A program made the translations under genes and the position numbers. Shown here piece after piece: positions 3,551 through 49,724 of a DNA stretch of 64,000 bases. The notes below the pieces were generated by a model. The model did no database searches. It saw only the letters and a program-made list of their open reading frames with translations, and was not told the origin of the DNA. The stretch is taken from positions 434,001 through 498,000 of the forward strand of contig JAFKHH010000012.1 in assembly GCA_017306865.1 (NCBI GenBank), given 5' to 3'. The DNA comes from Filimonas sp. Lineage in GTDB: Bacteria; Bacteroidota; Bacteroidia; Chitinophagales; Chitinophagaceae. Numbering within the stretch: position 1 is the first letter of the stretch; the number at the start of each line of letters is the position of its first letter.

Positions 3551-4474
3551 ATGTCTTTAATTGTAGTAGGAACAATGGCGTTCGACGATATCGAAACGCC
3601 TTTTGGAAAATCTGACAGGATCATTGGTGGTTCTGCAACGTATGTGGCTTATGCTGCCAGTAACTTTATAGATTCTGTAGAGCAGATTTCCATAGTAGGA
3701 AATGACTTTCCACAGGCAGAACTGGACTACCTGCAAAGCAAGGGAGTTTCTGTAGATGGCGTGGAAATAGTTAAAGACAAGCCGTCCTTTTTCTGGGCTG
3801 GTAAGTACCACATGGATATGAATACCCGCGATACGCTGGTAACAGACCTGAACGTACTGATGGATTTTAACCCGATCGTGCCTGAGAGCTACCAGGGTGC
3901 AGAATTCCTGATGCTGGGTAACCTGATGCCTAAACTGCAGAAAAGCGTTATAGAGCAATTAAAGACCAGGCCAAAACTTATTGTACTGGATACCATGAAC
4001 TTCTGGATGGAGACAGCCCTCGACGATCTGAAGGAAGTGCTGACAATGGTAGACGTATTGATGGTAAACGATAGCGAAGCCCGCCAGTTAACCAATGAAT
4101 TCTCTATAGTAAAAGCAGCTAAAAAAATATTGACAATGGGCCCTAAATACCTGATCATCAAGAAAGGGGAACATGGCGCATTGCTCTTCAATGAAAACAA
4201 TGTCTTCTTCGCACCGGCATTGCCATTAGAAGAAGTGTTTGACCCGACCGGCGCTGGCGACACATTCGCAGGCGGCTTTATGGGGCACCTGGCAAAGACA
4301 AAAGATATTTCTTTTGAAAACATGAAAACTGCTATCATAGTAGGTTCTGCAATGGCAAGTTTCTGTGTAGAGAAATTCGGTACAGAACGTCTGAAAGAGA
4401 TCAGCAAAGAAGATATTGAAGGAAGATTGAACGACTTCGTTCAGTTGGTTAACTTCGATATTAAGCTGGCATAA
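3551..4474 (+). CDS. PfkB-family sugar/nucleoside kinase
   Basis: A 307-residue ribokinase-fold kinase that phosphorylates a hydroxyl of a sugar or nucleoside with ATP. The N-terminal substrate-side signature GGSATYVAYAAS is present near residue 27. The C-terminal ATP-site signature DPTGAGDTFAGGF starts at residue 231, with Asp237 the expected catalytic base. The length is normal. The substrate cannot be told from sequence; the family includes ribokinase, adenosine kinase and fructokinase. It is monocistronic, with a -7 box upstream and a clear terminator downstream. Confidence 0.88.
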   Translation: MSLIVVGTMAFDDIETPFGKSDRIIGGSATYVAYAASNFIDSVEQISIVGNDFPQAELDYLQSKGVSVDGVEIVKDKPSFFWAGKYHMDMNTRDTLVTDLNVLMDFNPIVPESYQGAEFLMLGNLMPKLQKSVIEQLKTRPKLIVLDTMNFWMETALDDLKEVLTMVDVLMVNDSEARQLTNEFSIVKAAKKILTMGPKYLIIKKGEHGALLFNENNVFFAPALPLEEVFDPTGAGDTFAGGFMGHLAKTKDISFENMKTAIIVGSAMASFCVEKFGTERLKEISKEDIEGRLNDFVQLVNFDIKLA

Positions 4475-4534
4475 TGCTCCCCGGCAGGATTCCGGTCGAC
4501 CATTAAACAACAAAAAATCATCTTTTATATAAAT

Positions 4535-4560
4535 AAAAACTTCCCTTAGGGAAGTTTTTT
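4535..4560 (+). terminator. Rho-independent terminator after PfkB kinase
   Basis: An 11-bp perfect stem (AAAAACTTCCC paired with GGGAAGTTTTT) closes a TTA loop and runs into a T tract. It lies 60 bp after the kinase stop. Confidence 0.85.
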
Positions 4561-4595
4561 TAATTTAAAGCCTTAATCAAAAAATCACATTGTAT

Positions 4596-6635
4596 ATGAA
4601 ACCAACAAATTGGCTTGGCGTTTCATGTTTGGCAGTGGCATCCATGCTCGCATCCTGCGGTCAGCAAAAAGACGGCGAAGCGGCTAAAAAAAGTTTTATT
4701 GCCACTGAAAACTTCGATTCATCCGTAAAACCTGGTGACAACTTTTTCCTGTTTGTCAATGGTAAATGGATCAAATCAACAGAAATTCCTGCAACAGAGA
4801 CAGGAGCAGGTTCTTTCAACGACCTCTATAACAGAACAAAGGCCAATTTAAAAGGCATTATTGAAGACGCCGCAAAAAGCAATGCAGCCGCGGGTAGCAT
4901 AGAGCAGAAAGTGGGCGACTTCTATACAGCCGGTATGGATTCTGCAACGATTGATAAGCGCGGTTATGAGCCTGTAAAACCATACCTCGCAAAAATAGAT
5001 GCGATCAAAGATGCAAAAGGTGTAATGGCCTATGTAGCAGAAGACCAGGTCGAAAATAAAAATACCCTCTTCGCACAAGGCTTTAATGCTGATGAGAAAA
5101 ACAGCAGCATGAATATCGCTATCTATTACCAGGGTGGTATTGGTTTACCTGACAGGGATTACTATTTCAAAACAGATTCTGCTACTGCAAAAGTTATAAA
5201 AGCATATCAGACCTATATTGCCAAGTTGTTTGAACTAACAGGTACAGACGCTGCTACTGCTGCTAAAAATGCACAGACAGTATATGCACTGGAAAAACAA
5301 CTGGCTGGCGCACATCGTACAAACGTAGAGCTGCGCGACCCAAAAAGCAACTACAACAAATTTGCTGTAGCTGACCTGGACAAACAGATGCCAACATTCG
5401 GCTGGAAAACATTGCTTCCCGCTATGATGATCAACACAGATTCTGTAAACGTTGGTCAGCCGGCTTTTTATAAAAAAGTAGACGAGTTACTGAAATCTGT
5501 GCCGGTGGAAGACTGGAAAACATACCTGCGTTTCCACAAACTGGCAGACGCAGCATCTGCACTTAGCAGCAACTTTGTAGATGCAAGGTTTGAATACACC
5601 AAAGTATTAAGCGGCCAAAGAAAAATAAAAGCACGCTGGGAAAGAATGGTGCAAAATACAGATGGCAACCTGGGTGAAGCATTAGGTCAGTTATATGTAA
5701 AAAAATACTTTACAGAAGATGCTAAGAAGCGCATGCTGGACCTGGTGAACAACCTGGAAAAAGCATTTGAAACACGCATCAGCAGCCTGGACTGGATGAG
5801 CGACAGCACTAAAGCAAAAGCAAAAGACAAGCTGCATGCTTTCCTCAAAAAAATCGGCTATCCTGACAAATGGCGCGACTATAGCAAAGTAGCAATCGAT
5901 AAAGGTAAATACTTTGAAAATCTGGTGTCTTGTGCTAAAAATGAATATGCTTACCAGGTAGCAAAAGTGGGTAAACCGGTAGATAAGACAGAATGGGGTA
6001 TGACTCCTCCGACTATCAACGCATATTATAACCCGACTTTCAATGAGATCGTATTCCCGGCGGGCATACTGCAATTCCCATTCTTTGATCCTAACGCAGA
6101 TGACGCTATTAACTATGGCGGTATCGGTATGGTGATCGGCCATGAAATGACACACGGCTTTGATGACCAGGGTGCGCAATATGACAAAGAAGGTAACATG
6201 AGAGACTGGTGGGGTAAAGATGATTACACTAAGTTCAAAGCGAAATCTAAACAGGTAATAGACCTGTACAACGGCTTTACTGTACAGGATTCAGTGCATG
6301 TAAACGGAGCATTAACCACAGGTGAAAATATTGCTGACATTGGTGGTATCGCTATTGCGTATGATGCGTTTAAATTAACTAAACAAGGGCAGGATACAAC
6401 AAAGATTGATGGCTTTACACCTGACCAACGCTTCTTTATTTCCCTTGGACAGATCTGGCGTGATAAAATAAAACCAGAAACGGAATTGCTTTACATCAAT
6501 ACAGATCCGCACTCTCCGGCTATGTATCGTGTAAACGGTCCGCTGATGAACTTCACTCCATTCTATAAAGCGTTTAATATTCAGCCAACAGATAAGATGT
6601 TTGTAGCTGAAGATAAACGTATTAAGATCTGGTAG
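4596..6635 (+). CDS. M13 family (neprilysin/PepO-like) zinc endopeptidase, lipoprotein
   Basis: A 679-residue peptidase of family M13, which cuts small peptides outside the cytoplasm. The N-terminus is a lipoprotein signal with lipobox LASC (Cys21), so it is probably anchored in the outer membrane facing the periplasm. Peptidase_M13_N spans about residues 45-430. The catalytic domain follows, with VIGHEMTHGFDDQG carrying the HExxH zinc site (His516, Glu517, His520) and GENIADIGG giving the third ligand Glu577 and Asp581. The C-terminal RVNGPLMNFTPFYKAF region is also typical. The start is the ATG at 4596; an in-frame TTG two codons upstream is less likely. All catalytic residues are intact. 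Confidence 0.93.
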   Translation: MKPTNWLGVSCLAVASMLASCGQQKDGEAAKKSFIATENFDSSVKPGDNFFLFVNGKWIKSTEIPATETGAGSFNDLYNRTKANLKGIIEDAAKSNAAAGSIEQKVGDFYTAGMDSATIDKRGYEPVKPYLAKIDAIKDAKGVMAYVAEDQVENKNTLFAQGFNADEKNSSMNIAIYYQGGIGLPDRDYYFKTDSATAKVIKAYQTYIAKLFELTGTDAATAAKNAQTVYALEKQLAGAHRTNVELRDPKSNYNKFAVADLDKQMPTFGWKTLLPAMMINTDSVNVGQPAFYKKVDELLKSVPVEDWKTYLRFHKLADAASALSSNFVDARFEYTKVLSGQRKIKARWERMVQNTDGNLGEALGQLYVKKYFTEDAKKRMLDLVNNLEKAFETRISSLDWMSDSTKAKAKDKLHAFLKKIGYPDKWRDYSKVAIDKGKYFENLVSCAKNEYAYQVAKVGKPVDKTEWGMTPPTINAYYNPTFNEIVFPAGILQFPFFDPNADDAINYGGIGMVIGHEMTHGFDDQGAQYDKEGNMRDWWGKDDYTKFKAKSKQVIDLYNGFTVQDSVHVNGALTTGENIADIGGIAIAYDAFKLTKQGQDTTKIDGFTPDQRFFISLGQIWRDKIKPETELLYINTDPHSPAMYRVNGPLMNFTPFYKAFNIQPTDKMFVAEDKRIKIW

Positions 6636-8976: not shown

Positions 8977-10500
8977 GTGAAACTGAAAACTCCTAAAAGC
9001 GTTCTCACGATACTACTCTTATTTTCTTTTGTCGCAAACCTGTATGCACAAAAAACTAATCCTGCCATTCTAAAAGTACCTGACCCCAAAAAAAATGGCG
9101 GCGGTTACGTAAGTAATCCCGATCATATTGTTACGGATGAAACAGTGCAGGAAATGAATGCTGTGCTCAAATCGCTTGACCAATCCAACAAAGCACAGGT
9201 AGCCGTTGTGTTACTATCATCCATAAAGACGGATAAAACGCCCAAAGATTTTGCGCACGAGTTATTTAACTACTGGAAGATAGGTAAGAAAGAGTTGAAC
9301 AACGGACTACTAATTCTGCTCGTAAAAGATCAGCGCCGTATCGAATTTGAAACGGGTTATGGAATAGAAGGTGACTTGCCGGACATTACCTGTTTTAATA
9401 TCCAGCAAAAATCAATGTTGCCTTATTTTAAACAGGGCGATTATGATAATGGTATGCTGGCAGGTATTAATAAAGTAGCCGCTACCTTAAACAAAGATTC
9501 CACAGTTGAAGATGCAGCAGATAACCCAATAGATGTAGCGCCAGGTGCAGAGGGAGAACAAATGGGGAATGGAACCCCGGCTAGTCAGAAATATGATCAT
9601 GCTTCTACCTACGATTATCCGGGTCTTGCTTTTGTTGGAATATGTATTTTCCAGTTTATTTTTTCTGCTATTGGTTTGAAAGCATTCTCTGGTTATAATA
9701 AAACAGATGTGCGTGTGCCTGGTGGTATGTTATTGAAAACATCTGTTTTCTGGTTGCCAGTCGTAATGGCCCTTGTACTGGAGCAATACATAAGAATACC
9801 CATCTGGATTCATTTGATTATCGCCTTCTATCTTTCATGGACATTAATCATTCACCTGTTTGTAATTGTTACTAAACGCCAGATAAACAAGATGGCGCCA
9901 GAGAAAGACCGTAAGTGGAAGTATGGCGTATTAGACCAGATCTATAGTCGCTTTTTCATTGCAGAATTCTTCTTCCCATTACTTGCATGGCGGTTCAGAA
10001 AAATAAAACATGAAATGGATGATGCCCGCAATGCGCCATATACTTGCTCAGAATGCGGCAAGCCTATGAAGAAATTATCTTCAACAGAAGAGAAAAAATA
10101 CCTGGCTAAATATGAGCAAACAGAAGAAGATCTCAAATCAATCGATTACGATGTATGGGTTTGTACAGGATGTAAAAACTGGATAAAGTTGGATTATGAT
10201 AACATTCGCTCCACTGTAGAACATTGCCCGTCCTGTACACGAAAAACATTTGTAATGGTGAAAAATAGAACGATTGTGCGGGCCACCAAGTACAATGCAG
10301 GCTCAGGAGTAATGCAGTATCAATGCAAATCGTGTAATCATAAAGAAGACAGAACGTATGTTATACCTCAGTTGAGTGATTCTTCGTCTTCAGGCAGTTC
10401 CTCTTCTTCTTCCTCGTCATCCTCTTCGTCTTCGTCCAGCAGCTCATCCAGTTGGGGTGGTGGTTCCTCTGGTGGTGGTGGCGCTGGTAGTAGTTGGTAA
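8977..10500 (+). CDS. TPM-domain membrane protein with zinc ribbons and Ser/Gly tail
   Basis: A 507-residue protein with a GTG start and a signal peptide ending near NLYAQK. A TPM domain (YgcG/Psb32 family, about residues 45-170: HIVTDETVQEMNAVLKSLD, RRIEFETGYGIEGDLPD) comes next. Hydrophobic segments follow at about residues 210-235 and 250-310. The cytoplasmic part has CxxC pairs (CSECGK, CTGCKN, CPSCTR, CKSCNH) that form zinc-ribbon-like knuckles. The tail is a run of about 25 serines followed by WGGGSSGGGG and a final GSSW, as in many YgcG-type proteins. TPM proteins are linked to envelope or photosystem repair; the role here is unknown. Confidence 0.85.
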   Translation: MKLKTPKSVLTILLLFSFVANLYAQKTNPAILKVPDPKKNGGGYVSNPDHIVTDETVQEMNAVLKSLDQSNKAQVAVVLLSSIKTDKTPKDFAHELFNYWKIGKKELNNGLLILLVKDQRRIEFETGYGIEGDLPDITCFNIQQKSMLPYFKQGDYDNGMLAGINKVAATLNKDSTVEDAADNPIDVAPGAEGEQMGNGTPASQKYDHASTYDYPGLAFVGICIFQFIFSAIGLKAFSGYNKTDVRVPGGMLLKTSVFWLPVVMALVLEQYIRIPIWIHLIIAFYLSWTLIIHLFVIVTKRQINKMAPEKDRKWKYGVLDQIYSRFFIAEFFFPLLAWRFRKIKHEMDDARNAPYTCSECGKPMKKLSSTEEKKYLAKYEQTEEDLKSIDYDVWVCTGCKNWIKLDYDNIRSTVEHCPSCTRKTFVMVKNRTIVRATKYNAGSGVMQYQCKSCNHKEDRTYVIPQLSDSSSSGSSSSSSSSSSSSSSSSSSSWGGGSSGGGGAGSSW

Positions 10501-36449: not shown

Positions 36450-37463
36450 TTAGATAAATAACCTGATCAGGTAGAAGAAAATAGCAGCCATGATCGCACT
36501 TACCGGAATGGTGAGTACCCAGGCCCATAACAGGTTTACCGTAACACCCCAGCGCACAGCGGAAAGACGCTTTGTAGCACCAACACCTATGATAGAACCG
36601 GTAATGGTATGGGTAGTAGATACAGGTATTTTTAAATGTTCTGTCAGGAATAAAGTAACTGCACCTGCTGTTTCAGCAGCCACACCTTCCAGCGGGGTTA
36701 CTTTTGTAATCTTGGTGCCCATCGTTTTCACGATCTTCCAGCCTCCGCTTAGTGTACCTAGGCCCATTGCCACGAAACACATGATCGGAACCCAGTCAGG
36801 TATAGCATGTAGATCAGGAATGTAGTGTGTAGCAACCATTGCAGATCCAATGATACCCATTACTTTCTGGGAATCGTTACTACCATGGCCTAAGCTGAAC
36901 AGGGCTGATGAAACCAACTGTAAACGTTTAAACCATTTCTCCGCCTTATACGGGTTGGACCGTTTACTGAGATGCACAATAATAATGGTAATAATAAAGG
37001 CGATGATCATCCCAATAAAAGGGGCAAGGAAAATGAAACAAACTATTGGAAGAACTTTGGCCAATACAATTACGCCAAACGTTTTGTAGTGTGCTACAGC
37101 AGCACCAATCAGACCACCAATCAATGCATGTGACGAACTGGATGGAATACCAAACCACCATGTGATCAGGTTCCATGCAATAGCAGATAACAGGCCTGCC
37201 AGGATAACGTATAATGCATAAGGGTCTCCCTTATCAATATTTACGCTTTTGGCAATTGTATCTGCAATACCAAAGCCCCCAACAATGTATTTGGAAATAA
37301 AGAAAGCGCCGAAGTTGAAAAAAGCCGCCCAGGCTACTGCCTGGAATGGCGTTAATACTTTAGTAGAAACAATTGTAGCAATAGAGTTGGCCGAATCGTG
37401 AAAGCCGTTGATATAATCAAATATAAAAGACAGCCCTATGATAACGAGCAGTAGTGTGACCAT
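36450..37463 (-). CDS. Inorganic phosphate transporter, PiT family
   Basis: A 337-residue low-affinity phosphate permease of the PitA/PHO4 family. Two repeated signature segments mark the family: GFHDSANSIATIVSTKVLTPFQAVAWAAFFNF near the N-terminus and the second-half SLGHGSNDSQKVMGIIGSAMVA with PVSTTHTITGSIIGVGATKR. SSSHALIGGLIGAAVAHY is also typical. About ten membrane helices. It is co-transcribed with the upstream DUF47 gene (26-bp gap), a common pair in bacteria. Confidence 0.93.
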   Translation of the reverse strand: MVTLLLVIIGLSFIFDYINGFHDSANSIATIVSTKVLTPFQAVAWAAFFNFGAFFISKYIVGGFGIADTIAKSVNIDKGDPYALYVILAGLLSAIAWNLITWWFGIPSSSSHALIGGLIGAAVAHYKTFGVIVLAKVLPIVCFIFLAPFIGMIIAFIITIIIVHLSKRSNPYKAEKWFKRLQLVSSALFSLGHGSNDSQKVMGIIGSAMVATHYIPDLHAIPDWVPIMCFVAMGLGTLSGGWKIVKTMGTKITKVTPLEGVAAETAGAVTLFLTEHLKIPVSTTHTITGSIIGVGATKRLSAVRWGVTVNLLWAWVLTIPVSAIMAAIFFYLIRLFI

Positions 37464-37489: not shown

Positions 37490-38137
37490 TTAAGCGTATT
37501 TAACGATAATTGATTCAATAACATTCGCAGCGTCTTCGCATTTGTCTGTTACTGTTTCCATCGCCTGGTATATCTCTCTCTTTTTGATCAGCTCTTTCAC
37601 ATCATTCTCGCTCTCAAACAGTTTTTCGATGCTCATATCAAATACATCGTCAGCCTGGTTTTCTATACTGTTCACCTTTACCATAGCCTCAGTCATCTGG
37701 CGTAGGTTTTTCATATCCCTAAGGCCATAAACAACTTTTTTGATCTCAGCAGCACCCTGCTCAATCAATTCAGCCATTTTCTGAATACCACTATCATTAG
37801 GATTTACTTTGTAGAAATTGATCTTCTTTGCAGAAGAGAATATATAATCTGCAATATCATCCAGGGAAGTAGCCAGGTAGTGAATGTCCTCACGGTCAAA
37901 AGGAGTAATGAAATTGCGCCCTAACTCAGTGAAAATTTTATGTGTATGATCGTCGTTTTTATGTTCCAGGTCTTCAATTTGGGAGATTAAAGAGGCTCTT
38001 TTGTTGTGGTCCACTTCATATACCACTTGTTTTAACAATTGCGCCATTTGGTTTACGGTAATAGCCACATCCTCAAATAACTCATAAAACACTTTGTTTT
38101 TTGGCATAAAAATCTTGCCAATGGAGTTGATACCCAT
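37490..38137 (-). CDS. DUF47/PhoU-like Pit accessory protein
   Basis: A 215-residue all-helical protein of the DUF47 (Pit accessory, YkaA/PhoU-like) family. Features: FEDVAITVNQMAQLLKQVV, then DHTHKIFTELGRNFITPFDREDIHYLATSLDDIADYI, the conserved metal-binding region with E/D clusters, then VNSIENQADDVFDMSIEKLFE. In other bacteria it modulates phosphate uptake by the Pit partner. A -7 box lies 20 bp upstream. No PHO-box-like repeat is in phase with that -7 box, so the pair may be expressed constitutively. Confidence 0.9.
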   Translation of the reverse strand: MGINSIGKIFMPKNKVFYELFEDVAITVNQMAQLLKQVVYEVDHNKRASLISQIEDLEHKNDDHTHKIFTELGRNFITPFDREDIHYLATSLDDIADYIFSSAKKINFYKVNPNDSGIQKMAELIEQGAAEIKKVVYGLRDMKNLRQMTEAMVKVNSIENQADDVFDMSIEKLFESENDVKELIKKREIYQAMETVTDKCEDAANVIESIIVKYA

Positions 38138-38164: not shown

Positions 38165-38261
38165 GAAGTATGCTTTCAGGGCTGAGTTGTTTACAAATAA
38201 TTAATAATTTGGTAACATTGAGAATTGTCTAACTGCCTGAAAAACGGCTATTTAATGTTGA

Positions 38262-38307
38262 GTTAACCCAGGGCTAATAATTCCGTAACATATGCCTTCT
38301 ACTTTCG
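38262..38307 (+). promoter_or_regulatory. Putative PHO box (3 x 11 bp) and -7 element of TonB receptor gene
   Basis: Three contiguous 11-mers share TAA at the same position: GTTAACCCAGG (38262), GCTAATAATTC (38273), CGTAACATATG (38284). After exactly 5 bp comes TACTTTCG (38300-38307), one mismatch from TAnnTTTG. Contiguous 11-bp direct repeats just upstream of the core promoter are how PhoB/PhoP-type OmpR-family regulators bind. The same layout and spacing occurs at 42842-42898. A PhoB-like regulator is encoded at 49047-49724. The assignment is inference from pattern. Confidence 0.55.
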
Positions 38308-38325
38308 CTCCAAATTCATTTGGAC

Positions 38326-41145
38326 GTGAATAAAACTGCTCAGGCTGCGGTATGCAGTCTCATTGTACTACTGCGCACTATCCCTGCATTTTCCCAACAA
38401 GTAAAAATTACGGGCAAAGTAAGCGATGCCCAAACAAGTTCCCCGCTGGTAGGGGCCTCTGTTATATTACAGGAAACTAAAAAAGGTGTTACTACAGACG
38501 TAGAAGGCCGCTTCTTTCTGCAATTGGAAAAAGGGCACAAATACACCATCAGGGTCGTAAGTGTAGGCTATGCCGCAAAAACACTGACCGACGTAACTGC
38601 TGATAACACCAACTCCCTGGATGTAACACTGGACGAAGACAAGAAAAACCAATTGGAACTGGTAGTAGTAAAATCAACCTCTGCAAAAAGAGAAAGTATT
38701 GCCTCTATCTACCTTACACAAAAGAACAGCTCTGCGATCTCAGACGGCATTTCTGCCGATATGATCAAAAAATCTCCGGATAAGAATACTGGTGAGGTTT
38801 TAAAAAGAGTAAGCGGTGCTTCAGTTCAGGATAATAAATTTGTAGTTATCCGTGGTTTAAATGAGCGTTACAATGCATCCCTGTTAAATAATTCCATCTT
38901 ACCTAGCACAGAGCCGGATAAAAAAGCATTTTCTTTCGACATCATTCCATCCTCACTTGTAGACAATGTAGTTATCTATAAGTCTGCTACACCAGATCTA
39001 CCGGGCGACTTTGCCGGCGGCGCTGTAAAGATTACTACAAAGGATTACCCGGTAAGAAAGCTAAGTGAGCTATCCATTTCTGTTGGTTACAACACACTCA
39101 CCACTTTTAAAGAGTTTTATCGTGGCTACCCTAAAGGATCATTGGATGGGATTGGCTTTTTTGACAATTCCCGTTTAATACCTAATCCATACTATACACA
39201 GAAAAGTAATTTCAGCAACCTGCCTGAAGCCAACAAATCTGCTATTACAAAACAGTTTCCTAATACATATGGCTATGAAAAAGTAAGTAACAGCCTGCCA
39301 AACATCAGCGTTTCTTACACAGGGGGTAATACAAAACTGCTTAACAATGGCAAGAAGCTTGGTTACATCTATGCCTTAAGCTATGGTACATCCAGGAAAG
39401 TATCTGAAAGAGAGAGAACAGAGTACCAGAGCTACAACCTTTCTGATTACGATTATACAACCAATAACTACGATATACGCAACAACCTGTCTGCTATGTT
39501 GAACCTTTCTTACTCGTTTGGAAAAAGTAAGATCGCATGGAAAAATATGTTCAACAACGATTTTAGTAACATCACCGGGTTACGCTCAGGTATAGTAACT
39601 GCGAATTCTTCACCTATATATATAAAAGGTACGGGTAATGAAGCTACGGGTAATGGTATCGTAAACTCTGTGGTGGAAGGGCTTCATAAGCTGAACAGCA
39701 CATGGACACTGGATTGGAATGGTTCATTTGGTTATACCTATCGCTGGCAGCCAGATCAGAAAGTATTGACATATAGATCTGATGACAGCCCTACCAGTAA
39801 TTTTTACCTGAAACTCAACAATGAGAACTCCCCGGAGATTCGCAATGCGGGCCGCGTTTATTCATTCCTTACGGAATATATCTACGGTGCTAATGTAAAT
39901 ATTGCGAAACAGTTTAATTGGTTGGGGCAACAACAGAAACTGAAAATAGGTGGTACTACTTATTACAGGACCAGGAACCTGGAAGTGGACGCTCTGGGTT
40001 ATTCTGCACTGAACTCTGTTCCGGGTGGTGTACGCATTGATGAAACAAAAGCAACAGACTTCAATAATATTTTCAGCAATGAGAATATTGATAAGTATCG
40101 CCTGACAGTTGCCAATATTGCGACAAACTCCACTGACTATAAAGGCACAGGATTTCTGAATGCAGGTTATGTAATGTTAGACAACAAGTTTGCACAAAAC
40201 GTAAAGTTGACTTGGGGTGCAAGGGTGGAGAACTACAATCAGAAACTGGAAACCAAAGGTGCGCCTACATTGAACCTGCAAAATTTTGATGTACTGCCGT
40301 CTCTATTGCTGACTTATGGTCTGAATGATAAAACAAATTTGCGTCTTGCCGGCTTCCAGTCTGTAAACAGGCCGGAGTTTAGAGAACTGGCTACTTACTC
40401 AGTGTATGATTATGATAATAATGTGGTGATAAGAGGTAACAGTGCATTGGAACGTGCCCGTATTACGAATGGAGATCTGCGTTACGAGTGGTTCCCTGGT
40501 GCGGGTGAAATTGTTTCCGTAAGTGCATTCTATAAATATTTCAAAAGCCCGATAGAGCAGGTATATCTTGGCAATGATGTGTACTCCTATCAGAATGCTG
40601 AAAGTGCTGATGCATATGGAGCCGAAGTAGAGCTAAGAAAGAAACTGGATTTTATTGGCGGAAACGTCTTCAATCATTTTACATTCTATGCCAATGCAGC
40701 CTACATCAAAGGTTCTGTAAAGCTGAAAGACCAGAATAACAACATCATTAATACAAATAGTCCGTTACAAGGACAATCTCCGTACCTCGTGAATGCAGGG
40801 TTGACATATACTTCAATAGCTGAAGATTTTTCAGTGAACGTATTGTACAACAGGATCGGAACACGCCTCAGATCACGCGGTAGCCTGCTAAGTGGTGGCG
40901 CCAGGGATGTGTTTGAGGCACCGCGCGATGTTATAGACCTACAGGTAACAAAGCGATTTATGAACGACAAGTTTGAGATAAAGGCAACTGTTAGCGACAT
41001 CCTTGCTCAATCGTACAGGTGGTTCTACAAATTTGACACAGATCACTCACAAATAAGTTACGACGCTTCTAAAGACAGGGTTGTGAATTCAATTAAGTAT
41101 GGCCCTACCATCAACCTGTCGCTACGATACAGCTTCAGTAAATAG
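38326..41145 (+). CDS. TonB-dependent receptor with N-terminal CarboxypepD_reg-like domain
   Basis: A 939-residue outer-membrane receptor. A signal peptide ends near IPAFSQQ. A CarboxypepD_reg-like beta-sandwich follows (about residues 25-110: ITGKVSDAQTSSPLVGASVIL to DVTLDEDKKN). The plug has KSPDKNTGEVLKRVSGASVQDNKFVVIRGLNERYN, and a 22-strand-type barrel ends in NLSLRYSFSK. It takes up a ligand using TonB energy. The start is uncertain: GTG at 38326 is used, TTG at 38320 is possible, and neither has a clear ribosome site. It is divergent from the phosphate transporter operon and preceded by PHO-box-like repeats, so a phosphorus-containing ligand is a guess. Confidence 0.85.
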   Translation: MNKTAQAAVCSLIVLLRTIPAFSQQVKITGKVSDAQTSSPLVGASVILQETKKGVTTDVEGRFFLQLEKGHKYTIRVVSVGYAAKTLTDVTADNTNSLDVTLDEDKKNQLELVVVKSTSAKRESIASIYLTQKNSSAISDGISADMIKKSPDKNTGEVLKRVSGASVQDNKFVVIRGLNERYNASLLNNSILPSTEPDKKAFSFDIIPSSLVDNVVIYKSATPDLPGDFAGGAVKITTKDYPVRKLSELSISVGYNTLTTFKEFYRGYPKGSLDGIGFFDNSRLIPNPYYTQKSNFSNLPEANKSAITKQFPNTYGYEKVSNSLPNISVSYTGGNTKLLNNGKKLGYIYALSYGTSRKVSERERTEYQSYNLSDYDYTTNNYDIRNNLSAMLNLSYSFGKSKIAWKNMFNNDFSNITGLRSGIVTANSSPIYIKGTGNEATGNGIVNSVVEGLHKLNSTWTLDWNGSFGYTYRWQPDQKVLTYRSDDSPTSNFYLKLNNENSPEIRNAGRVYSFLTEYIYGANVNIAKQFNWLGQQQKLKIGGTTYYRTRNLEVDALGYSALNSVPGGVRIDETKATDFNNIFSNENIDKYRLTVANIATNSTDYKGTGFLNAGYVMLDNKFAQNVKLTWGARVENYNQKLETKGAPTLNLQNFDVLPSLLLTYGLNDKTNLRLAGFQSVNRPEFRELATYSVYDYDNNVVIRGNSALERARITNGDLRYEWFPGAGEIVSVSAFYKYFKSPIEQVYLGNDVYSYQNAESADAYGAEVELRKKLDFIGGNVFNHFTFYANAAYIKGSVKLKDQNNNIINTNSPLQGQSPYLVNAGLTYTSIAEDFSVNVLYNRIGTRLRSRGSLLSGGARDVFEAPRDVIDLQVTKRFMNDKFEIKATVSDILAQSYRWFYKFDTDHSQISYDASKDRVVNSIKYGPTINLSLRYSFSK

Positions 41146-41154
41146 TGTGTATTT

Positions 41155-41290
41155 GTGTTTGGACATATAAGGCATAAGGAATAAGGGTTAAGTTATAAGG
41201 CTTTCAGGCAAATGTCAATCCGGCTATAAAGCCGGGCTGCTACACCTATGCCTGGATCTTACACTTCACGCCATATTTCCTTAAACCATA
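41155..41290. repeat. AAGG-family word repeats between receptor and beta-helix gene
   Basis: CATATAAGGCATAAGGAATAAG and GGTTAAGTTATAAGGC on the left (41164-41204) face CTATGCCTGGATCTTACAC and TTCACGCCATATTTCC on the right (41249-41283), an imperfect inverted repeat. It separates two genes that may still be one transcript. Confidence 0.5.
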
Positions 41291-41361
41291 AAATCGAATC
41301 AATAGTTTGCTAATCATCTGGCAATACATGGCATTTAACTTTAATTAAATTGAAAATTTGT

Positions 41362-42747
41362 ATGAAAAAACTGACATCAGTACTTGTGTTGGGGGCGATA
41401 GTACTGGGTACGGCATGCAGCAAAAGTGACAACCAGCCTGCACCAAATCCCGGTCCTACTCCAAATCCAGACGGTTCTTATGATATCCGCGGGGTTATCA
41501 ATAAGGACATGACTTTGACTAAAGACAAAAAGTATCGTCTGCGTGGTTATGTGTACGTTACTGGTAATGCTACGCTAACAATTGAAGCAGGAACCAGGAT
41601 CGTATCTAATAAAGATTCAGCCGGCGTATTAGTGATCTATAGAGATGCTAAGATCATGGCTGACGGTACTGCGGATAATCCAATCGTATTTACCTCTAAC
41701 GAAACATCTGCTGCGCCAGGCGACCTTGGCGGTATCATCCTTGTTGGCCAGGCTACAGGCAATAACAACCACTCTGTAATTGAAGGTGGCGTAGATGCTG
41801 CTTACAGTGCATTTGGCGGATCAAACGATGCTCATAACTCAGGTATCTTCCGTTATGTACGTATAGAGTATGCTGGTAAAGCTGTTAACCCGGGCGATGA
41901 AGTGAATGGGTTGTCTTTATATGGTGTAGGTTCAGGTACTACTATTGACTATGTACAGATCGTTAGGGGCCTGGATGACGCATTCGAATTTTTCGGTGGT
42001 GCTGTAAATGCAAAACACCTGATCGCTTACAACTGTGCTGATGATGATTTTGATATGGACGATGGCTACCACGGTAAAATCCAGTATGCGATCTCTATTA
42101 AAGATCCTAAGTTCACCGATGCCAAAGGCACTACAGGTGACATTTCTAACAATTTTGAGGTTGACAACATTAACCCATCAAACGGGTTCCTGTTTACAAG
42201 AGCGCCGATAACTTTCCCTGTATTATCAAACTTTACAGCAGTTGGTCCAAATAATGCAGCAGGTGTATCTGCTGATTATGGCTATGGCATGCGTTGGAGA
42301 AGAGGTTCTAAATTCATCCTTGCCAATTCCATTGTGATCGGTGGTCAGAGAGCAGGTCTGGACCTGGATGATGACTCTACTGCATCATATTATGCAAAAG
42401 ATACCAGTGCATTTTACAATAGCTTCCTGCATTCAGTTGCAAAACCATTCCAGGTGGATAGGTTAGTAGTAACACCTAGAGTACTAGACTCACTGGGTCT
42501 TGCAACTAAAGTAACCGGATCTGATAAGAGCGTTGTTTACGCGAATGTAAATGACATCAAACTGACTGATCCGTTCAACAACCCAGCACCTAATGTAAAA
42601 CCAGCTACAGGATCTCCGGCATTAACTACTGCCGGAAGATTTGACAGAGGTAAACTGACTGATGCATTCTTTGATAAAACAACATACATCGGTGCGTTAG
42701 ACGCAACAAATGACTGGACAGCTAAATGGACAGTTTGGAATAAATAA
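41362..42747 (+). CDS. Surface lipoprotein, beta-helix-like, partner of TonB receptor
   Basis: A 461-residue lipoprotein with lipobox LGTAC (Cys19), followed by SKSDNQPAPNPGPTPNPDGS, a proline-rich linker. The body looks like a right-handed beta-helix: repeated short strands and turns such as GYVYVTGNATLTIEAGTRIV, IMADGTADNPIVFTSNE, GIFRYVRIEYAG, TIDYVQIVRGLDDAFEFFGGAVNAKHLIAYNCADDDFDMDDGYHG. Aspartates cluster in the last of these. No catalytic motif is clear. The ATG at 41362 is preferred over a TTG four codons upstream. Its position between two TonB receptors suggests a SusD-like substrate-capturing partner; this is inference. Confidence 0.75.
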   Translation: MKKLTSVLVLGAIVLGTACSKSDNQPAPNPGPTPNPDGSYDIRGVINKDMTLTKDKKYRLRGYVYVTGNATLTIEAGTRIVSNKDSAGVLVIYRDAKIMADGTADNPIVFTSNETSAAPGDLGGIILVGQATGNNNHSVIEGGVDAAYSAFGGSNDAHNSGIFRYVRIEYAGKAVNPGDEVNGLSLYGVGSGTTIDYVQIVRGLDDAFEFFGGAVNAKHLIAYNCADDDFDMDDGYHGKIQYAISIKDPKFTDAKGTTGDISNNFEVDNINPSNGFLFTRAPITFPVLSNFTAVGPNNAAGVSADYGYGMRWRRGSKFILANSIVIGGQRAGLDLDDDSTASYYAKDTSAFYNSFLHSVAKPFQVDRLVVTPRVLDSLGLATKVTGSDKSVVYANVNDIKLTDPFNNPAPNVKPATGSPALTTAGRFDRGKLTDAFFDKTTYIGALDATNDWTAKWTVWNK

Positions 42748-42760
42748 CTATATATAAAAA

Positions 42761-42790
42761 ATAGAAAGGCTTATTCTTAAGCCTTTCTAT
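42761..42790. terminator. Hairpin after beta-helix gene
   Basis: A perfect 13-bp stem, ATAGAAAGGCTTA with TAAGCCTTTCTAT, loop TTCT. It lies 13 bp after the stop. There is an A tract before but only a weak T tract after. Confidence 0.7.
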
Positions 42791-42806
42791 TCTACTTGTT
42801 GTTTAC

Positions 42807-42842
42807 GCTTGTTAACGGTAATCGTTAATAACGTTAACAAGC
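42807..42842. promoter_or_regulatory. Palindrome GCTTGTTAACG / CGTTAACAAGC upstream of Oar-like gene
   Basis: A perfect 11-bp inverted pair (42807-42817, 42832-42842) with a 14-bp centre that includes TCGTTAATAA. It contains the same GTTAAC core as the adjacent direct repeats, so it may be an extra operator for the same or another dimeric regulator. Confidence 0.5.
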
Positions 42843-42898
42843 TTAATGTCGTGGTAACATTACGGTAACAATTCGTTAACATTGGCGACCGTCCTTTG
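42842..42898 (+). promoter_or_regulatory. Putative PHO box (4 x 11 bp) and -7 element of Oar-like receptor gene
   Basis: Four contiguous 11-mers have TAA in phase at 42844, 42855, 42866 and 42877: CTTAATGTCGT, GGTAACATTAC, GGTAACAATTC, GTTAACATTGG. The last three carry TAACA exactly. Five bases later comes GTCCTTTG (42891-42898), a partial match to TAnnTTTG, 17 bp before the ATG. Spacing from last repeat to -7 element equals that at 38262-38307. A PhoB-like activator is the best candidate to bind it. Confidence 0.65.
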
Positions 42899-42915: not shown

Positions 42916-45900
42916 ATGAGACGAATCGTCTATTTGATGTTAGTAACCTTCGTAACATCGGTACTACTTCCTAAGTTTTCTATCTCACAGGAAACTACTG
43001 CAACCCTTACAGGTACGATCTCTGATGCGGCAGGTGCGCCTATCACCGGTGCCTCTATCGTAATTACACACGTACCTACTGGTTTTGTAACAAAATTGCA
43101 AACCAATAACAAAGGCCGCTTTGCTGCTCCAACGCTTAAAGCAGGTGGACCTTATACAATCAAAATATCTTATGTAGGATTGAAGGATGAAGTGTTGAAT
43201 GACATTAATCTTGCATTAGGTGATAACCCGGATCTGAATGTTTCATTGAGTGCAACGGCTAACGAACTGAAAGAAGTAACGGTATTGGCTGCAGGCAGAA
43301 AAGCTGCACCATCCGGTCTTACAGTTAGCACAAAGCAATTGAATACGTTGCCTACATTAGGCAGAAGCCTGAGCGACTTCACAAGATTGACACCTCAGTC
43401 AAACAACAACTCTTTTGCCGGTACAAACTTCCGTTATAACAATATCACCCTGGACGGTGCTATCAATAATGATGCTATCGGTTTCAGTAATTCATTTGGT
43501 GGTGTAAGTGGTGGTGGTCAGAGCGGTACTGCCGGTTCTGGTACACGTACAAACCCGTATAGCCTTGATGTTATACAGGAAGTACAGGTACAACTGACTC
43601 CGTATGATGTAAAGCTGGGTAACTTCACTGGTGGTAGTGTGAACGCTGTAACAAAAAGCGGTACAAACGATTTTCACGGTTCTATATATGGCTATGGCAG
43701 AAACCAGGCATTTGTTGGTAAAAGCGTAGACGGAACAAAATCTAAAATCGGTTCTGACTTCTACGATTACCAATATGGTGGTACATTAAGCGGCCCGATC
43801 ATCAAAAACAAATTGTTCTTCATTGTAAATGGTGAGATCACCCGCCGCCAGGAACCAACTTTCTTTAACGCAGGCGATCCGGGTTCTATCTCTATTGCAG
43901 ATGCACAGCGTGTAGTAGCAGCTTATAAAAAAGCAGGCTATGATCCGGGTTCTTACGATCAATACAAGATCTTCACAAACAGTAATAAATTCTTCGGTCG
44001 TATAGACTACAACATTGATCCTAACAATACATTGATGTTGCGTGCGATCTATACAGAAGGTGAAGGCAATAACCTGGAGCGTACAAATACAACCTTCCAG
44101 TTCTCTTCTACAGACTTTACCCAGCATACTAAAAACCTGAACTTAGTAGCTGAGTTAAAAACAAAATTCAGCAACAGTGTAAACAACAACTTAATTGTTA
44201 GTTACATCAACGTACATGATTACCGCGATTTCCCTACTGCAGGTAATACACCTTCTCCTTATGTGGATATTACCAATGGTGCTATCAACATCTGGGCTGG
44301 TACATGGCGCGAAGCTGCTATTTACAATACAAGACAAAAAACATTTGAGATCACAGATAACGTAACCTGGACAAAAGGAATTAACAAATTCACTTTTGGT
44401 ACGCACAACGAATTCTATGATTTCAACTACGGCTTTATCAACTCATGGAATGGTCGCTGGCAGTATGGTACTTTAGATAACTTTGAAAACAATCTGCCAA
44501 GCAGGATCCGTGGCGCATTTGCTTTTGATAAAGGCAAGAATAACTACAGCGATCTTTCAAACAATACACCAGGTGCTAAGTTTAACGTAGCTATGCTGAG
44601 TGCTTATGCACAGGATGAAATAGCTGTAACAAAACGTTTCAAAATAACACCGGGTATCCGTGTTGACTATTCTTCTGTAGGCAGTCAGCCTCCTATGGAT
44701 AAAGATCTGAACAGCATCACCGCCGACGTTCATAACTCTGGTACTTTCTCTAACACACCGTATAGCCAATTAAGTAATAAATGGCTGGGTAACGCTGTAT
44801 TCTCTCCACGTCTTGGTTTTAACTGGGATATCAATGGTGATCAGTCTACAGTGTTGAGAGGTGGTACAGGTATCTTTACCGGTAGAGTACCATTTGCATG
44901 GTTAGGTTATGCGTACACGCTGAACGGTAACGACTACGGTAACGTTGACTACAAAGCAAACAATACTTACGTTCCATTGGTTGGTCCTAACCAACTGGTA
45001 GATACTATTGGTAAATATGGTGGAGCAGGTGCTGTAAATAAAAGAGAACTTGACCTGATCGACAATAACTTTAAAATGCCTACTATCTGGCGTTCTAACG
45101 TAGCTGTAGATTTCAAATTCGGTCATGGCTATAAGTTGACTTTGGATGCGATGTACACAAAAACATTGTATGATGTAATGTTCCAGCAGATCAATAAAAA
45201 AGACAGTGGTGTAATGTATTATGCAACTGGCCCTACACAGACTCCATTGTACACTGGTGGCGACGTTAGCAGCAAATACTCCAGCGTATTCCTGTTGAGC
45301 AATACAAAAGAAGGCTATCGTTATAACTTTACTGTACAGTTAACTAAAGCAACAAACAACATCAGGTTAGGTGCTACACACTCACTTAATTTCAACTGGT
45401 CTGCTGCATATACTTACGGCATGTCTAAAGACGTGAGCAATGGTATCCGTAATTCATTCCAGAGTAACTGGGATTATAACCCGGCTATCTCTGCAAACAG
45501 CCCTGCATTGGGATACTCAAACTTTGACCTGCGTCACAGGATAGTAGCTTTCGCTGGTGCTAACTTTATCTGGAGCAAAAGCAATGCATCTTCAATCAGC
45601 TTTGTTTACTCTGGTCAATCTGGTAGCCCTTACAGCTTAGTGTACACAGGTGCTCCGGGTGGTATCATCAACGGTAACGCGGCATTGCCTTACATTCCAA
45701 AAGATCAGAACGATATCATACTGAAAGATCCTACACAGTGGGCTGCATTGAATTCATTCATTGAAGGCGACAGCTACCTGAAAAATCACCGTGGTCAGTA
45801 CGCTGACAGAAACGGATTGCGCACACCATGGAACCATACACTGGATATGAAATTGATGCATGAGTTCAAATTCAACAACAAGCATAGCCTGACGTTGAGC

Positions 45901-46170
45901 CTGGATGTATTCAATGTGCTGAACCTGATCAACAACGACTGGGGACATATCACTTTCGTAACAAATACAAACAACTATACTGTTAACTTCCTGAAGTTTG
46001 AAAAAGATGCGAAAGGTGTAGCGCCGGGTAACCCAACAAGCAACCCTGCTACTAACTATACGCCAACATTCAGCTTCCAGCAACCGACTACCAGCAATGG
46101 TAAATACTACACCGTAGACCCGATCAACTCACGTTGGCAAGGTCAATTCGGTATCAAATACACATTCTAG
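42916..46170 (+). CDS. Oar-like TonB-dependent outer-membrane receptor
   Basis: A 1084-residue receptor of the Oar/OmpA-like TonB-dependent type. A signal peptide ends near FSISQET. A CarboxypepD_reg domain covers about residues 27-120 (LTGTISDAAGAPITGASIVI, TNNKGRFAAPTLKAGGPYTI). The plug has LPTLGRSLSDFTRLTPQ, and the Oar-type QEVQVQLTPYDVKLGNFTGG with SVNAVTKSGTNDFHGS follows. The barrel ends RWQGQFGIKYTF with a terminal Phe. Oar proteins are linked to protein secretion or nutrient uptake in different bacteria. Codon use is like its neighbours. Upstream PHO-box-like repeats suggest phosphate control. Confidence 0.88.
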   Translation: MRRIVYLMLVTFVTSVLLPKFSISQETTATLTGTISDAAGAPITGASIVITHVPTGFVTKLQTNNKGRFAAPTLKAGGPYTIKISYVGLKDEVLNDINLALGDNPDLNVSLSATANELKEVTVLAAGRKAAPSGLTVSTKQLNTLPTLGRSLSDFTRLTPQSNNNSFAGTNFRYNNITLDGAINNDAIGFSNSFGGVSGGGQSGTAGSGTRTNPYSLDVIQEVQVQLTPYDVKLGNFTGGSVNAVTKSGTNDFHGSIYGYGRNQAFVGKSVDGTKSKIGSDFYDYQYGGTLSGPIIKNKLFFIVNGEITRRQEPTFFNAGDPGSISIADAQRVVAAYKKAGYDPGSYDQYKIFTNSNKFFGRIDYNIDPNNTLMLRAIYTEGEGNNLERTNTTFQFSSTDFTQHTKNLNLVAELKTKFSNSVNNNLIVSYINVHDYRDFPTAGNTPSPYVDITNGAINIWAGTWREAAIYNTRQKTFEITDNVTWTKGINKFTFGTHNEFYDFNYGFINSWNGRWQYGTLDNFENNLPSRIRGAFAFDKGKNNYSDLSNNTPGAKFNVAMLSAYAQDEIAVTKRFKITPGIRVDYSSVGSQPPMDKDLNSITADVHNSGTFSNTPYSQLSNKWLGNAVFSPRLGFNWDINGDQSTVLRGGTGIFTGRVPFAWLGYAYTLNGNDYGNVDYKANNTYVPLVGPNQLVDTIGKYGGAGAVNKRELDLIDNNFKMPTIWRSNVAVDFKFGHGYKLTLDAMYTKTLYDVMFQQINKKDSGVMYYATGPTQTPLYTGGDVSSKYSSVFLLSNTKEGYRYNFTVQLTKATNNIRLGATHSLNFNWSAAYTYGMSKDVSNGIRNSFQSNWDYNPAISANSPALGYSNFDLRHRIVAFAGANFIWSKSNASSISFVYSGQSGSPYSLVYTGAPGGIINGNAALPYIPKDQNDIILKDPTQWAALNSFIEGDSYLKNHRGQYADRNGLRTPWNHTLDMKLMHEFKFNNKHSLTLSLDVFNVLNLINNDWGHITFVTNTNNYTVNFLKFEKDAKGVAPGNPTSNPATNYTPTFSFQQPTTSNGKYYTVDPINSRWQGQFGIKYTF

Positions 46171-47791: not shown

Positions 47792-48841
47792 TTAATCCCG
47801 GCGCGTATCCAGCGTAAAGCCCAGCGTAGTGCCTATATCCAGCTTACTCCGTACATGCATAGCCTGGTTATGCGCTTCGATGATGTGTTTGCAAATAGAT
47901 AAGCCTAAGCCAGAGCCACCCACATCGCGACTACGTCCACGGTCTGTTCTGTAAAAACGTTCAAAGATGCGCGGTAAATGCTCCTCGCTAATACCTATGC
48001 CATCATCGCTTATCTCAACCAGTACATGCTTGTCATCTGTTTTATATACGCTCGCAACGATGTTGCCATCCTTCTTACCATACTTGATCGCGTTAGAAAC
48101 AAGATTGATGATCACCTGGCGTATTTTTTCCTTATCGGCAAACACCGTGATTGGTTGTTCGCATCCTTTCTTAATGCTGCATTTAATATTCCGTGAAGCA
48201 CTTTTGATAGAGAGAGTTTCAAAAACTTCCCTGATCAGGTCCTGGATAATGAAGTTCTCCTTGTATAAAGGCTGCTCACCGCTTTCCAGCTTGGAAATTT
48301 CGTCCAGGTCACTTACCAGCGTTACCATCCTGTCTACATTTCGTGCCGCATTTTCCAGGAACTTTTTATTCACCGCAGGGTTCTCCAAAGCGCCACCTAA
48401 CAGCGTATCTACATACCCCTGTATAGCAAAAATGGGCGTTTTAAACTCGTGCGAGAGATTTTGCAAAAACTCCTTCCGGTAAGCCTCATTGCTCTTTAAT
48501 ATTTCAATTTCTGCCTTACGCTGCGCTGCCCATTTTTCTACATCCTCACGTACCTCGTCAATGCTTTTCTGAGGAAGAATATATTTATAATACATCTCCT
48601 CCTTCTTTGAAGCCTTAGTCTGGTAAATGAACTTGTAAATGAGTTTGATCTTGCGATAAATAAATCGCTCCAGTACAGTACGGATCAGGAAATAGCTACC
48701 CGCAAACACAATAATGCAGGCAATAATAGCTACAATAAGCGATGCGTGAACGATATAAAAACCTATTCCTATCGGCACGGCAACAGCAACGGCTGTCAGC
48801 GCCGACAATTGGTTAGGTGTAAAGTTCTTCGTACTGAACAT
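47792..48841 (-). CDS. PhoR-like sensor histidine kinase
   Basis: A 349-residue membrane kinase. Two helices close together (about residues 14-31 and 36-54) leave almost no periplasmic loop. A short charged linker leads to the HisKA domain with phospho-acceptor His131 in NLSHEFKTPIFAIQGY. The HATPase part has NLVSNAIKYG (N box), DDGIGI (G1), FERFYR (F box) and GGSGLGLSICK (G2). The lack of an outside sensor domain is like PhoR, which reads phosphate status through Pst/PhoU. No PAS domain is evident. It lies 205 bp downstream of the response regulator gene on the same strand and is presumed its partner. Confidence 0.8.
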   Translation of the reverse strand: MFSTKNFTPNQLSALTAVAVAVPIGIGFYIVHASLIVAIIACIIVFAGSYFLIRTVLERFIYRKIKLIYKFIYQTKASKKEEMYYKYILPQKSIDEVREDVEKWAAQRKAEIEILKSNEAYRKEFLQNLSHEFKTPIFAIQGYVDTLLGGALENPAVNKKFLENAARNVDRMVTLVSDLDEISKLESGEQPLYKENFIIQDLIREVFETLSIKSASRNIKCSIKKGCEQPITVFADKEKIRQVIINLVSNAIKYGKKDGNIVASVYKTDDKHVLVEISDDGIGISEEHLPRIFERFYRTDRGRSRDVGGSGLGLSICKHIIEAHNQAMHVRSKLDIGTTLGFTLDTRRD

Positions 48842-49046: not shown

Positions 49047-49724
49047 CTACATCTCAAACTTATACCCAACGCCTTTTACCGTTGTAATACAATCTATGCC
49101 CAGTTTCTGGCGTATTTTACGAATGTGCACATCGATCGTTCTGTCGCCTACGATCACATCTGTGCCCCAGACCTGGCTTAGTATTTCATTGCGGAGGAAT
49201 ACACGTCCCGGACGGGATGCCAGCAGGTATAATAATTCAAATTCTTTTTTAGCCAGTATCACATCTTCCTCATTAACGGCTACCACAAATTTCACCGGGT
49301 CAATGTTGATGTTACCCACTTTCAGTGTCTTATCGCCTTCCTTATTAAGACGGCGGAAAATGGCGTTTACACGGCTGATCAGCACCTTTGGGCTAATCGG
49401 CTTGTTTACATAATCATCCGCACCCGTATCAAAGCCCTTGATGTGGGATGCTTCATCACTAAGTGCAGTAAGGAAAATGATCAGTGTATCCTGGAATGCC
49501 GGTAAAGCTCTGAGGGTAGAGCAAACCTCCACACCTGTTTTCTTAGGCATCATAATATCCAGGATGATCAGGTCAGGGTTGATTTGTTTTGCTTTCTGGA
49601 TAGCCTCATCACCATCTTTGGCGGTGTAGATTTCATATCCCTCTTTCGTCAGGTTATAGCCTATAATTTCCAATATATCCTGTTCATCATCAGCTATTAA
49701 GACCTTCTTTCCCTTGTTTTCCAT
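49047..49724 (-). CDS. PhoB-like OmpR-family response regulator
   Basis: A 225-residue regulator. The receiver domain has the acidic pair Asp12-Asp13 in IADDEQD, phospho-acceptor Asp56 in ILDIMMP, Thr in FLTALSDE and Lys in VNKPISPKVL. The winged-helix DNA-binding domain covers about residues 130-225, including LAKKEFELLYLLASRPGRVFLRNEI, VWGTDVIVGDRTIDVHIRKIRQKLG and the end TVKGVGYKFEM. The ATG at 49724 is preferred to a TTG two codons earlier. OmpR-family proteins of this type bind 11-bp direct repeats, as seen upstream of both TonB receptor genes nearby. PhoB identity is inferred from overall similarity and context. Confidence 0.82.
   Translation of the reverse strand: MENKGKKVLIADDEQDILEIIGYNLTKEGYEIYTAKDGDEAIQKAKQINPDLIILDIMMPKKTGVEVCSTLRALPAFQDTLIIFLTALSDEASHIKGFDTGADDYVNKPISPKVLISRVNAIFRRLNKEGDKTLKVGNINIDPVKFVVAVNEEDVILAKKEFELLYLLASRPGRVFLRNEILSQVWGTDVIVGDRTIDVHIRKIRQKLGIDCITTVKGVGYKFEM

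Follow-up and report, generated by a model that had tools for sequence, protein, structure and literature searches.

Which regulator acts on the two similar arrays of 11-bp repeats that precede a pair of outer-membrane receptor genes in a 64,000-nucleotide stretch of Filimonas sp. (GenBank assembly GCA_017306865.1, contig JAFKHH010000012.1, positions 434,001 to 498,000 of the forward strand; hereafter the window, with positions counted from its first letter)? The first gene encodes a TonB-dependent receptor (receptor 1) and the second an Oar-like receptor (receptor 2, the label "Oar-like" being that of a first-pass annotation of the same DNA). Our analysis makes it very likely that both arrays belong to a Bacteroidota type of PHO box, as putative sites of the phosphate-starvation regulator PhoB. 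The arrays, their conservation, their spacing to the promoter, the set of genes that carry them and the orthology of an adjoining regulator are established by sequence comparison.

PhoP repeats are known from Bacillus, alongside the PHO boxes of Escherichia coli and Streptomyces. On a PHO box, PhoB sits head-to-tail on contiguous 11-nt direct-repeat units, and the consensus differs between species (reviewed in PMC4415409). Like the boxes of E. coli and Streptomyces, the arrays described here are made of contiguous 11-nt units, exceeding the two by which a PHO box is recognized, and stand before pst and phosphorus-scavenging genes. They differ in having a TTAAYA core rather than CTGTCAT or GTTCACC, in usually comprising three to four and up to seven units, and in being phased to the Bacteroidota -7 element TAnnTTTG, a consensus described in flavobacteria (PMC9723704). 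The missing E. coli core CTGTCAT is not disqualifying, because the PHO-box consensus is species dependent (PMC4415409).

Repeat arrays at two receptor promoters

The receptor 1 array consists of units at 38262-38272, 38273-38283 and 38284-38294, followed by CCTTC and the -7-like element TACTTTCG, which agrees with TAnnTTTG at five of six fixed bases; a degenerate in-phase unit, TTAATG, lies ahead of the array at 38252. At receptor 2, units at 42853-42863, 42864-42874 and 42875-42885 are preceded by a degenerate fourth (42842-42852) and followed by CGACC and GTCCTTTG, which matches only four of the six fixed bases. The first-pass annotation had reported arrays upstream of both receptors with an identical 5-bp gap to a -7-like element, and both points hold. 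Its three units at receptor 1 are confirmed, and three of its four units at receptor 2 have a perfect core, the fourth being degenerate; it had missed a second, looser array farther upstream at receptor 1, which lacks a -7 element at the usual spacing. This looser array sits between receptor 1 and the divergent DUF47-Pit operon. Close upstream of the receptor 2 array, and out of phase with it, the palindrome GTTAAC occurs twice at a spacing of 22 bp (42811-42816 and 42833-42838).

Within the window, the pattern TAACA-N6-TAACA-N6-TAACA with up to two mismatches occurs four times against 0.45 expected, a count reached in 0 of 100 shuffles; all four matches lie upstream of the two receptors, two of them being the receptor 2 array in overlapping registers. 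Across the 6.15-Mb genome, the exact triplet has a single occurrence, at receptor 2 (42855). The score of the receptor 2 promoter (330 bp) was reached by 0 of 2,000 shuffles. At receptor 1 the looser array has the highest score, 14.5, which was reached by 0 of 2,000 and 1 of 2,000 shuffles in two runs; the proximal array scores 14.0, reached by 2 of 2,000.

A scan for conserved repeats at orthologous promoters, suggested by the first-pass annotation, bore out the arrays at both receptors. For receptor 1, the best 80 of 92 relatives were kept, 78 of them with usable upstream DNA (79 promoters including the window; L098 and L102 were left out, L102 also from the stricter-score scan, as they have too little upstream DNA). 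An array scoring at least 13.5 is present in 56 of the 78 (57/79 with the window) versus 0.63% of dinucleotide shuffles, and one scoring at least 14 in 46/78 (47/79) versus 0.13%. Under a stricter score, period 11 yields 35 of 79 loci at 14 or more, versus 0-1 at each of nine other periods. These counts vary by scan (35, 47 or 44 at a score of at least 14; 57 or 54 at 13.5) because the score later tolerated C or T at one base and start codons were set differently. By group, arrays of at least 13.5 occur in 24/27 Sphingobacteriaceae promoters, 16/22 labelled Chitinophagaceae (window included) and 10/14 unassigned. The in-phase arrays have three to seven units, commonly three to four at receptor 1, and their core is TTAAYA, as derived from arrays already selected for that core. 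For receptor 2, the 30 best loci were fetched, from 37 genomes with a match; the array is found in 7 of 8 orthologues from other genomes at 47% identity or more and in 2 of 21 distant homologues (below 45%).

The arrays also keep a preferred position beside the -7 element, as PHO boxes do. Distances were measured from the T of the last TAACA to the T of TAnnTTTG, with -7 candidates matching at least five of six bases. Upstream of receptor 1, the distance is 14 nt in 47/79 promoters, 25 nt in 26/79 and 11 nt in 16/79 (others at most 4/79); upstream of receptor 2, 14 nt in 5/9, 25 nt in 5/9 and 11 nt in 3/9 (others at most 2/9). Two further promoter sets, described below, give 14 nt in 10/30, 25 nt in 8/30 and 11 nt in 1/30 (others at most 1/30) for a PlcP-like gene, and 14 nt in 3/6, 25 nt in 5/6 and 11 nt in 3/6 (others at most 1/6) for pst. 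The 25-nt distance equals the 14-nt distance plus one further 11-bp unit.

Other genes that carry the array

Genome analysis with three units plus the -7 element at up to two mismatches found five places: the two receptors, a gene pair for a PlcP-like metallophosphoesterase and a glycosyltransferase, a PAP2 phosphatase, and a SusC-SusD-DUF5689-phosphoesterase cluster. Only the three non-receptor places are new, because the pattern had been modelled on the promoters of the two receptors. The array at the PlcP-like pair is as expected for lipid remodelling in phosphate stress. The SusC-SusD cluster resembles the Pus loci of Flavobacterium johnsoniae.

The PlcP-like gene is present in 36 of 59 genomes (E at most 1e-20), a distribution that fits an accessory enzyme; loci were fetched for the best 30 of 37 matches in these 36 genomes. 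An array precedes it in 16/30 loci (15/29 without the host genome), versus 0 at nine other periods. The protein matches PF12850 and PF00149, and is called PlcP-like because PF12850 is shared with F. johnsoniae PlcP and a glycosyltransferase is adjacent. One genome (G006) has at least five arrays within about 14 kb that holds a PlcP-like gene, a receptor 2 homologue, and receptor 1-like and lipoprotein-like genes.

PstC model cut-offs are exceeded in 14 of the 59 genomes, and 16 pst loci were scanned from 12 of these (G020 and G044 were left out, their contigs ending too near). Within 1.5 kb upstream of pstC, an array was found in 0 of 13 loci (G013 and secondary permease matches excluded); arrays lie about 2.6-2.8 kb upstream of pstC in two genomes, and with about 5-8 kb of upstream DNA, arrays scoring at least 14 were found in 6/16 loci. 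Nine windows reach this score at period 11, versus 0, 0, 0, 0, 0, 1 and 0 at periods 8, 9, 10, 12, 13, 14 and 15. All six arrays directly precede an unnamed gene of 390-490 amino acids, followed by pstS (Pfam-confirmed in L232 and read from its position in the other five) and pstC, and homologues of the unnamed gene occur in exactly these six loci (L232-L236 and L239). The name porin was dropped for this gene: two of the six proteins were tested, both without a Pfam match and one also without an NCBIfam match. The six loci used in the distance and shuffle tests were chosen for having an array, so that 6/6 there is not independent evidence.

A background set of 271 further genes from the receptor 1 loci has nine arrays scoring at least 14, versus 0-1 at other periods. 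Three of the nine precede PlcP-like-looking genes, three lie before a single conserved neighbour of receptor 1 and one before a ppk-looking gene (the names PlcP-like and ppk being read from N-terminal sequence). Arrays of this strength are found at 14/64 lipoprotein promoters, and at 0/18 sensor kinase-like and 0/30 response regulator-like promoters. PhoX is matched in 4 of the 30 genomes reached through the loci, in three over cut-off; upstream of the strongest match, in Pedobacter psychroterrae, lies TAACA-N6-TAACA-N9-TACCTTTG, with three-unit scores of only 13.0 and 12.5.

The conserved gene beside receptor 1, found in Niastella and Longitalea (L033, L034 and L036, about 4316-5743, + strand), lies with its own array between DUF47 and receptor 1. 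The polyphosphate kinase-looking gene (L042, 1565-3629, - strand) has its array upstream.

Table 1. Positions of the arrays, promoter elements and genes discussed; coordinates refer to the window unless a locus is named
Feature	Position	Strand	Remarks
Candidate Pho-box array of receptor 1, proximal	38262..38294	+	Three 11-bp units, TAA in phase at 38264/38275/38286
-7-like element of receptor 1, TACTTTCG	38300..38307	+	14 nt from T of last TAACA
Second, looser 11-bp array (TTACA/TTAAT/TAACA)	38189..38221	+	Upstream of receptor 1 box
Candidate Pho-box array of receptor 2	42842..42885	+	One degenerate and three perfect-core 11-bp units
-7-like element of receptor 2, GTCCTTTG	42891..42898	+	
Receptor 1, TonB-dependent receptor	38326..41145	+	CarboxypepD_reg-like and Plug domains
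Lipoprotein-like secreted protein	41362..42747	+	Predicted beta-helix, invariant acidic residues
Receptor 2, Oar-like outer-membrane receptor	42916..46170	+	OMP_b-brl_4, CarboxypepD_reg
Pit-type phosphate transporter	36450..37463	-	
DUF47 (PhoU_div)	37490..38137	-	Divergent neighbour of receptor 1
Sensor kinase, PhoR orthologue	47792..48841	-	No PAS domain matched in Pfam
Response regulator, PhoB orthologue	49047..49724	-	Proposed binder of the arrays
SusC-SusD-DUF5689-phosphoesterase cluster	L308, 1344-9216	-	Pho-box-like array near 9370-9381
PlcP-like phosphoesterase and glycosyltransferase	L310, 5311-7318	-	Long array

The adjoining regulator and its relatives

The response regulator encoded at 49047-49724 has a receiver domain and a winged-helix effector domain of the OmpR/PhoB type, and is the best of ten full-length PhoB-model matches in the host genome. 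At E values of at most 1e-65 it is matched in 54 of 59 genomes, 52 with a single match and two with two. In one relative (G037), its orthologue (60% identity) and that of the kinase (50%) lie inside a pstC-pstA-pstB-phoU-regulator-kinase operon, in which pstC, pstA, pstB and phoU each exceed their own model cut-off; a second (G057) shares this gene order, phoU, pstC and the regulator being assigned by model or sequence match and the rest by inspection. The first-pass annotation had called the protein PhoB-like, and both its genome-wide rank and this operon context agree. The recognition helix is close to that of E. coli PhoB and is nearly identical in 26 matches in the relatives' loci, the most divergent being that of L086. 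Receptor 1, lipoprotein, regulator and kinase occur together in 17/80 loci, and Pit with DUF47 in 9/80. Seven loci (L093, L096, L097, L100, L101, L103 and L110) encode two PhoB-like regulators per receptor locus, with two forms of the recognition helix.

An array of this type is very probably the binding site of the Bacteroidota phosphate-starvation regulator PhoB, because the response regulator is orthologous to that of pst operons, because PhoP of Riemerella anatipestifer has a TTTAACA core, and because of the phosphate response of F. johnsoniae. In Riemerella, PhoP/PhoR is raised in phosphate starvation, TTTAACA were the most conserved bases in DNA affinity purification sequencing (DAP-seq), and an electrophoretic mobility shift assay (EMSA) was made with a TonB-receptor promoter (PMC9603813). 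The likeness to the Filimonas system (a Bacteroidota regulator pair, the core and a TonB-receptor promoter) is one of motif and kind of gene; unlike the arrays here, the Riemerella motif is not described in the available text of that report as an 11-bp PHO-box array, nor tied to pst or PlcP. In F. johnsoniae, phosphate depletion induces a TonB-dependent receptor and a polygalacturonase-like lipoprotein encoded beside PhoBR, PhoB itself, an orphan pf13620 receptor, PlcP and SusCD-like complexes (PMC8115612). The cluster PUSIV/PhoBR, with a receptor (pf07715, pf13715) and a lipoprotein (IPR011050) next to PhoBR, has the same make-up as that in the window, as judged from gene content rather than sequence, and the phosphate-starvation link that the first-pass annotation had drawn for the receptor and lipoprotein agrees with these data. 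The main text of that paper, unlike the present analysis, gives no promoter element; the terms "promoter" and "pho box" have 0 occurrences in it.

In Bacteroides fragilis, PhoB binds the pst promoter by EMSA (PMC3547664); unlike the Filimonas genome, in which Pst was not detected, B. fragilis has a Pst system, and the available text of that report gives no binding sequence. The PHO box is already known as a kind of element. Pho boxes have also been proposed for the plcP gene clusters of marine bacteria (Sebastian et al. 2015; PMC4796936). The sequence rule, the -7 phase and the reach of the gene set found here were not met in the open-licence literature searched, where no description of a Bacteroidota Pho-box array was found; the scope of that search makes this absence no proof.

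How the regulator would bind and activate these promoters, how phosphate would be signalled in this Filimonas and what would be taken up, we infer as follows. Phosphate shortage would lead the kinase at 47792 (PhoR) to phosphorylate the response regulator at 49047 (PhoB), which would bind head-to-tail on at least three contiguous 11-bp units with core TTAAYA and recruit RNA polymerase, the primary sigma factor reading the TAnnTTTG element with the last TAACA mostly 14 nt upstream. Receptors 1 and 2 would thereby be switched on, as would the PlcP-like phosphoesterase and glycosyltransferase (lipid remodelling), the PAP2 phosphatase and the SusCD cluster whose last gene encodes a phosphoesterase. 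The receptors, together with the beta-helix lipoprotein encoded between them, would probably bind or process an organic phosphorus source and import it.

Alternative explanations and phosphate sensing

Several results weigh against reading the arrays as PHO boxes of PhoB. Loose patterns perform poorly genome-wide: the TAACA triplet at up to three mismatches gives 313 matches versus 494 in the reversed control, which is noise; two units plus the -7 element give 34 versus 38, with no enrichment (and the zero-mismatch match at receptor 1 is partly by construction, because the pattern was relaxed to fit that promoter); three units plus the -7 element at up to three mismatches give 6 versus 5, and 263 versus 203 across the 59 genomes. 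The pattern alone is therefore unreliable as a genome scanner. The 25-nt distance exceeds 14 nt in the pst set and ties with it at receptor 2, orthologous sequences are not independent samples, and receptor 1 promoters of Flavobacteriia/Crocinitomicaceae reach 13.5 less often (7/16). The other ten pst loci have no array of at least 14 (one reaches 13.5). Arrays of that score occur at 0/9 Pit and 1/9 DUF47 promoters, which leaves this pair no more than a possible member of the phosphate-starvation regulon that the first-pass annotation had proposed; the regulon itself is supported by the arrays at orthologous receptor promoters and before pst and PlcP-like genes. Among 14 Flavobacterium phoX-like promoters (81 genomes searched; several matches weak, starts uncertain), 1/14 has an array, the same as at other periods, unlike the induction of the pf05787 gene by phosphate depletion in F. 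johnsoniae, where PhoR is not significantly induced (PMC8115612). In Riemerella, only 50 candidate targets were differentially expressed, from 583 DAP-seq peaks (PMC9603813). The PlcP-like label is not secure, LpxH models being the best NCBIfam matches, below cut-off. Finally, the 49047-49724 protein falls under both curated PhoB cut-offs (TIGR02154, 222.7 < 296.2 bits; NF053854, 212.5 < 270 bits), and is therefore called a PhoB orthologue by context and not by model; TIGR02154 exceeds its cut-off in only 2 of a 14-genome control panel, and the pst-operon orthologue in G037 is also below both.

The pattern counts, under or barely over their reversed controls, are what speaks for the view that the repeats reflect chance or AT-rich promoter composition and were chosen by eye. 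Almost nothing, however, emerges from dinucleotide shuffles or at the seven to nine alternative periods, and most receptor 1 orthologue promoters and the close receptor 2 orthologues do score; with chance and low complexity ruled out by these tests, we give this explanation almost no weight. A different OmpR-family regulator, for example one like ArcA or RprY, could instead bind the arrays, the phosphorus genes then answering a broader stress. Such regulators exist here, as the ten PhoB-model matches attest, and the Riemerella motif has been likened to that of E. coli ArcA (PMC9603813). The array, however, tracks pst, the PlcP-like gene, the receptor-lipoprotein pair and a ppk-like gene, and the adjoining regulator is orthologous to the one found in pst-phoU operons, which makes another binder improbable.

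The nature of the substrate leaves more room for an alternative. Receptor 1 does not form a SusC/SusD pair, since the product encoded next to it is a beta-helix protein rather than SusD; the SusC-SusD cluster with its own array lies elsewhere in the genome. The first-pass annotation had predicted a beta-helix lipoprotein, and a confident structure model (predicted local distance difference test score, pLDDT, 90.2), rich in short repeated strands, makes this fold likely. In a search of the PDB at E values of at most 0.001, the model matched only pectate lyase 3zsc (E 8.6e-4, low template modelling scores), and the sequence has no PDB or Pfam match; the nearest folds are those of pectate and alginate lyases. 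Acidic residues that are invariant in the protein hint at binding of a ligand or metal. Receptors built from these domains belong to families that handle many different substrates. It is possible, if on the whole unlikely, that the arrays are PHO boxes and the receptors import something other than a phosphorus compound, such as a metal or glycan needed in phosphate stress, as the lyase-like fold would suit; the polygalacturonase-like homology of the F. johnsoniae lipoproteins was likewise noted by Lidbury et al. (PMC8115612).

If the arrays are PHO boxes of PhoB, their input appears unusual. The host genome (99.97% complete) keeps PhoB and PhoR, and neither a PstC model match nor PhoU was detected in it; neither exceeds its cut-off in 41 of the 54 genomes with a PhoB orthologue, the host included, and plant-associated Bacteroidetes are reported to lack PstSABC (PMC8115612). 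One tentative and rather doubtful proposal is that PhoR-PhoB works without Pst-PhoU, the neighbouring Pit-DUF47 pair, in which DUF47 is PhoU-like, reporting phosphate status to PhoR. Were this true, a different input would be wired to an otherwise classical Pho-box regulon.

We propose a Pho-box rule for Chitinophagaceae and Sphingobacteriaceae, weaker in Flavobacteriia, of at least three 11-bp units with core TTAAYA phased to TAnnTTTG, mostly at 14 nt from the last TAACA. Such a rule would link TonB receptors and lipoproteins of unassigned substrate to phosphate starvation and would offer a promoter-level explanation for published phosphate-induction data. It also raises the question of how PhoR senses phosphate in those Bacteroidota that have no detectable Pst and PhoU.

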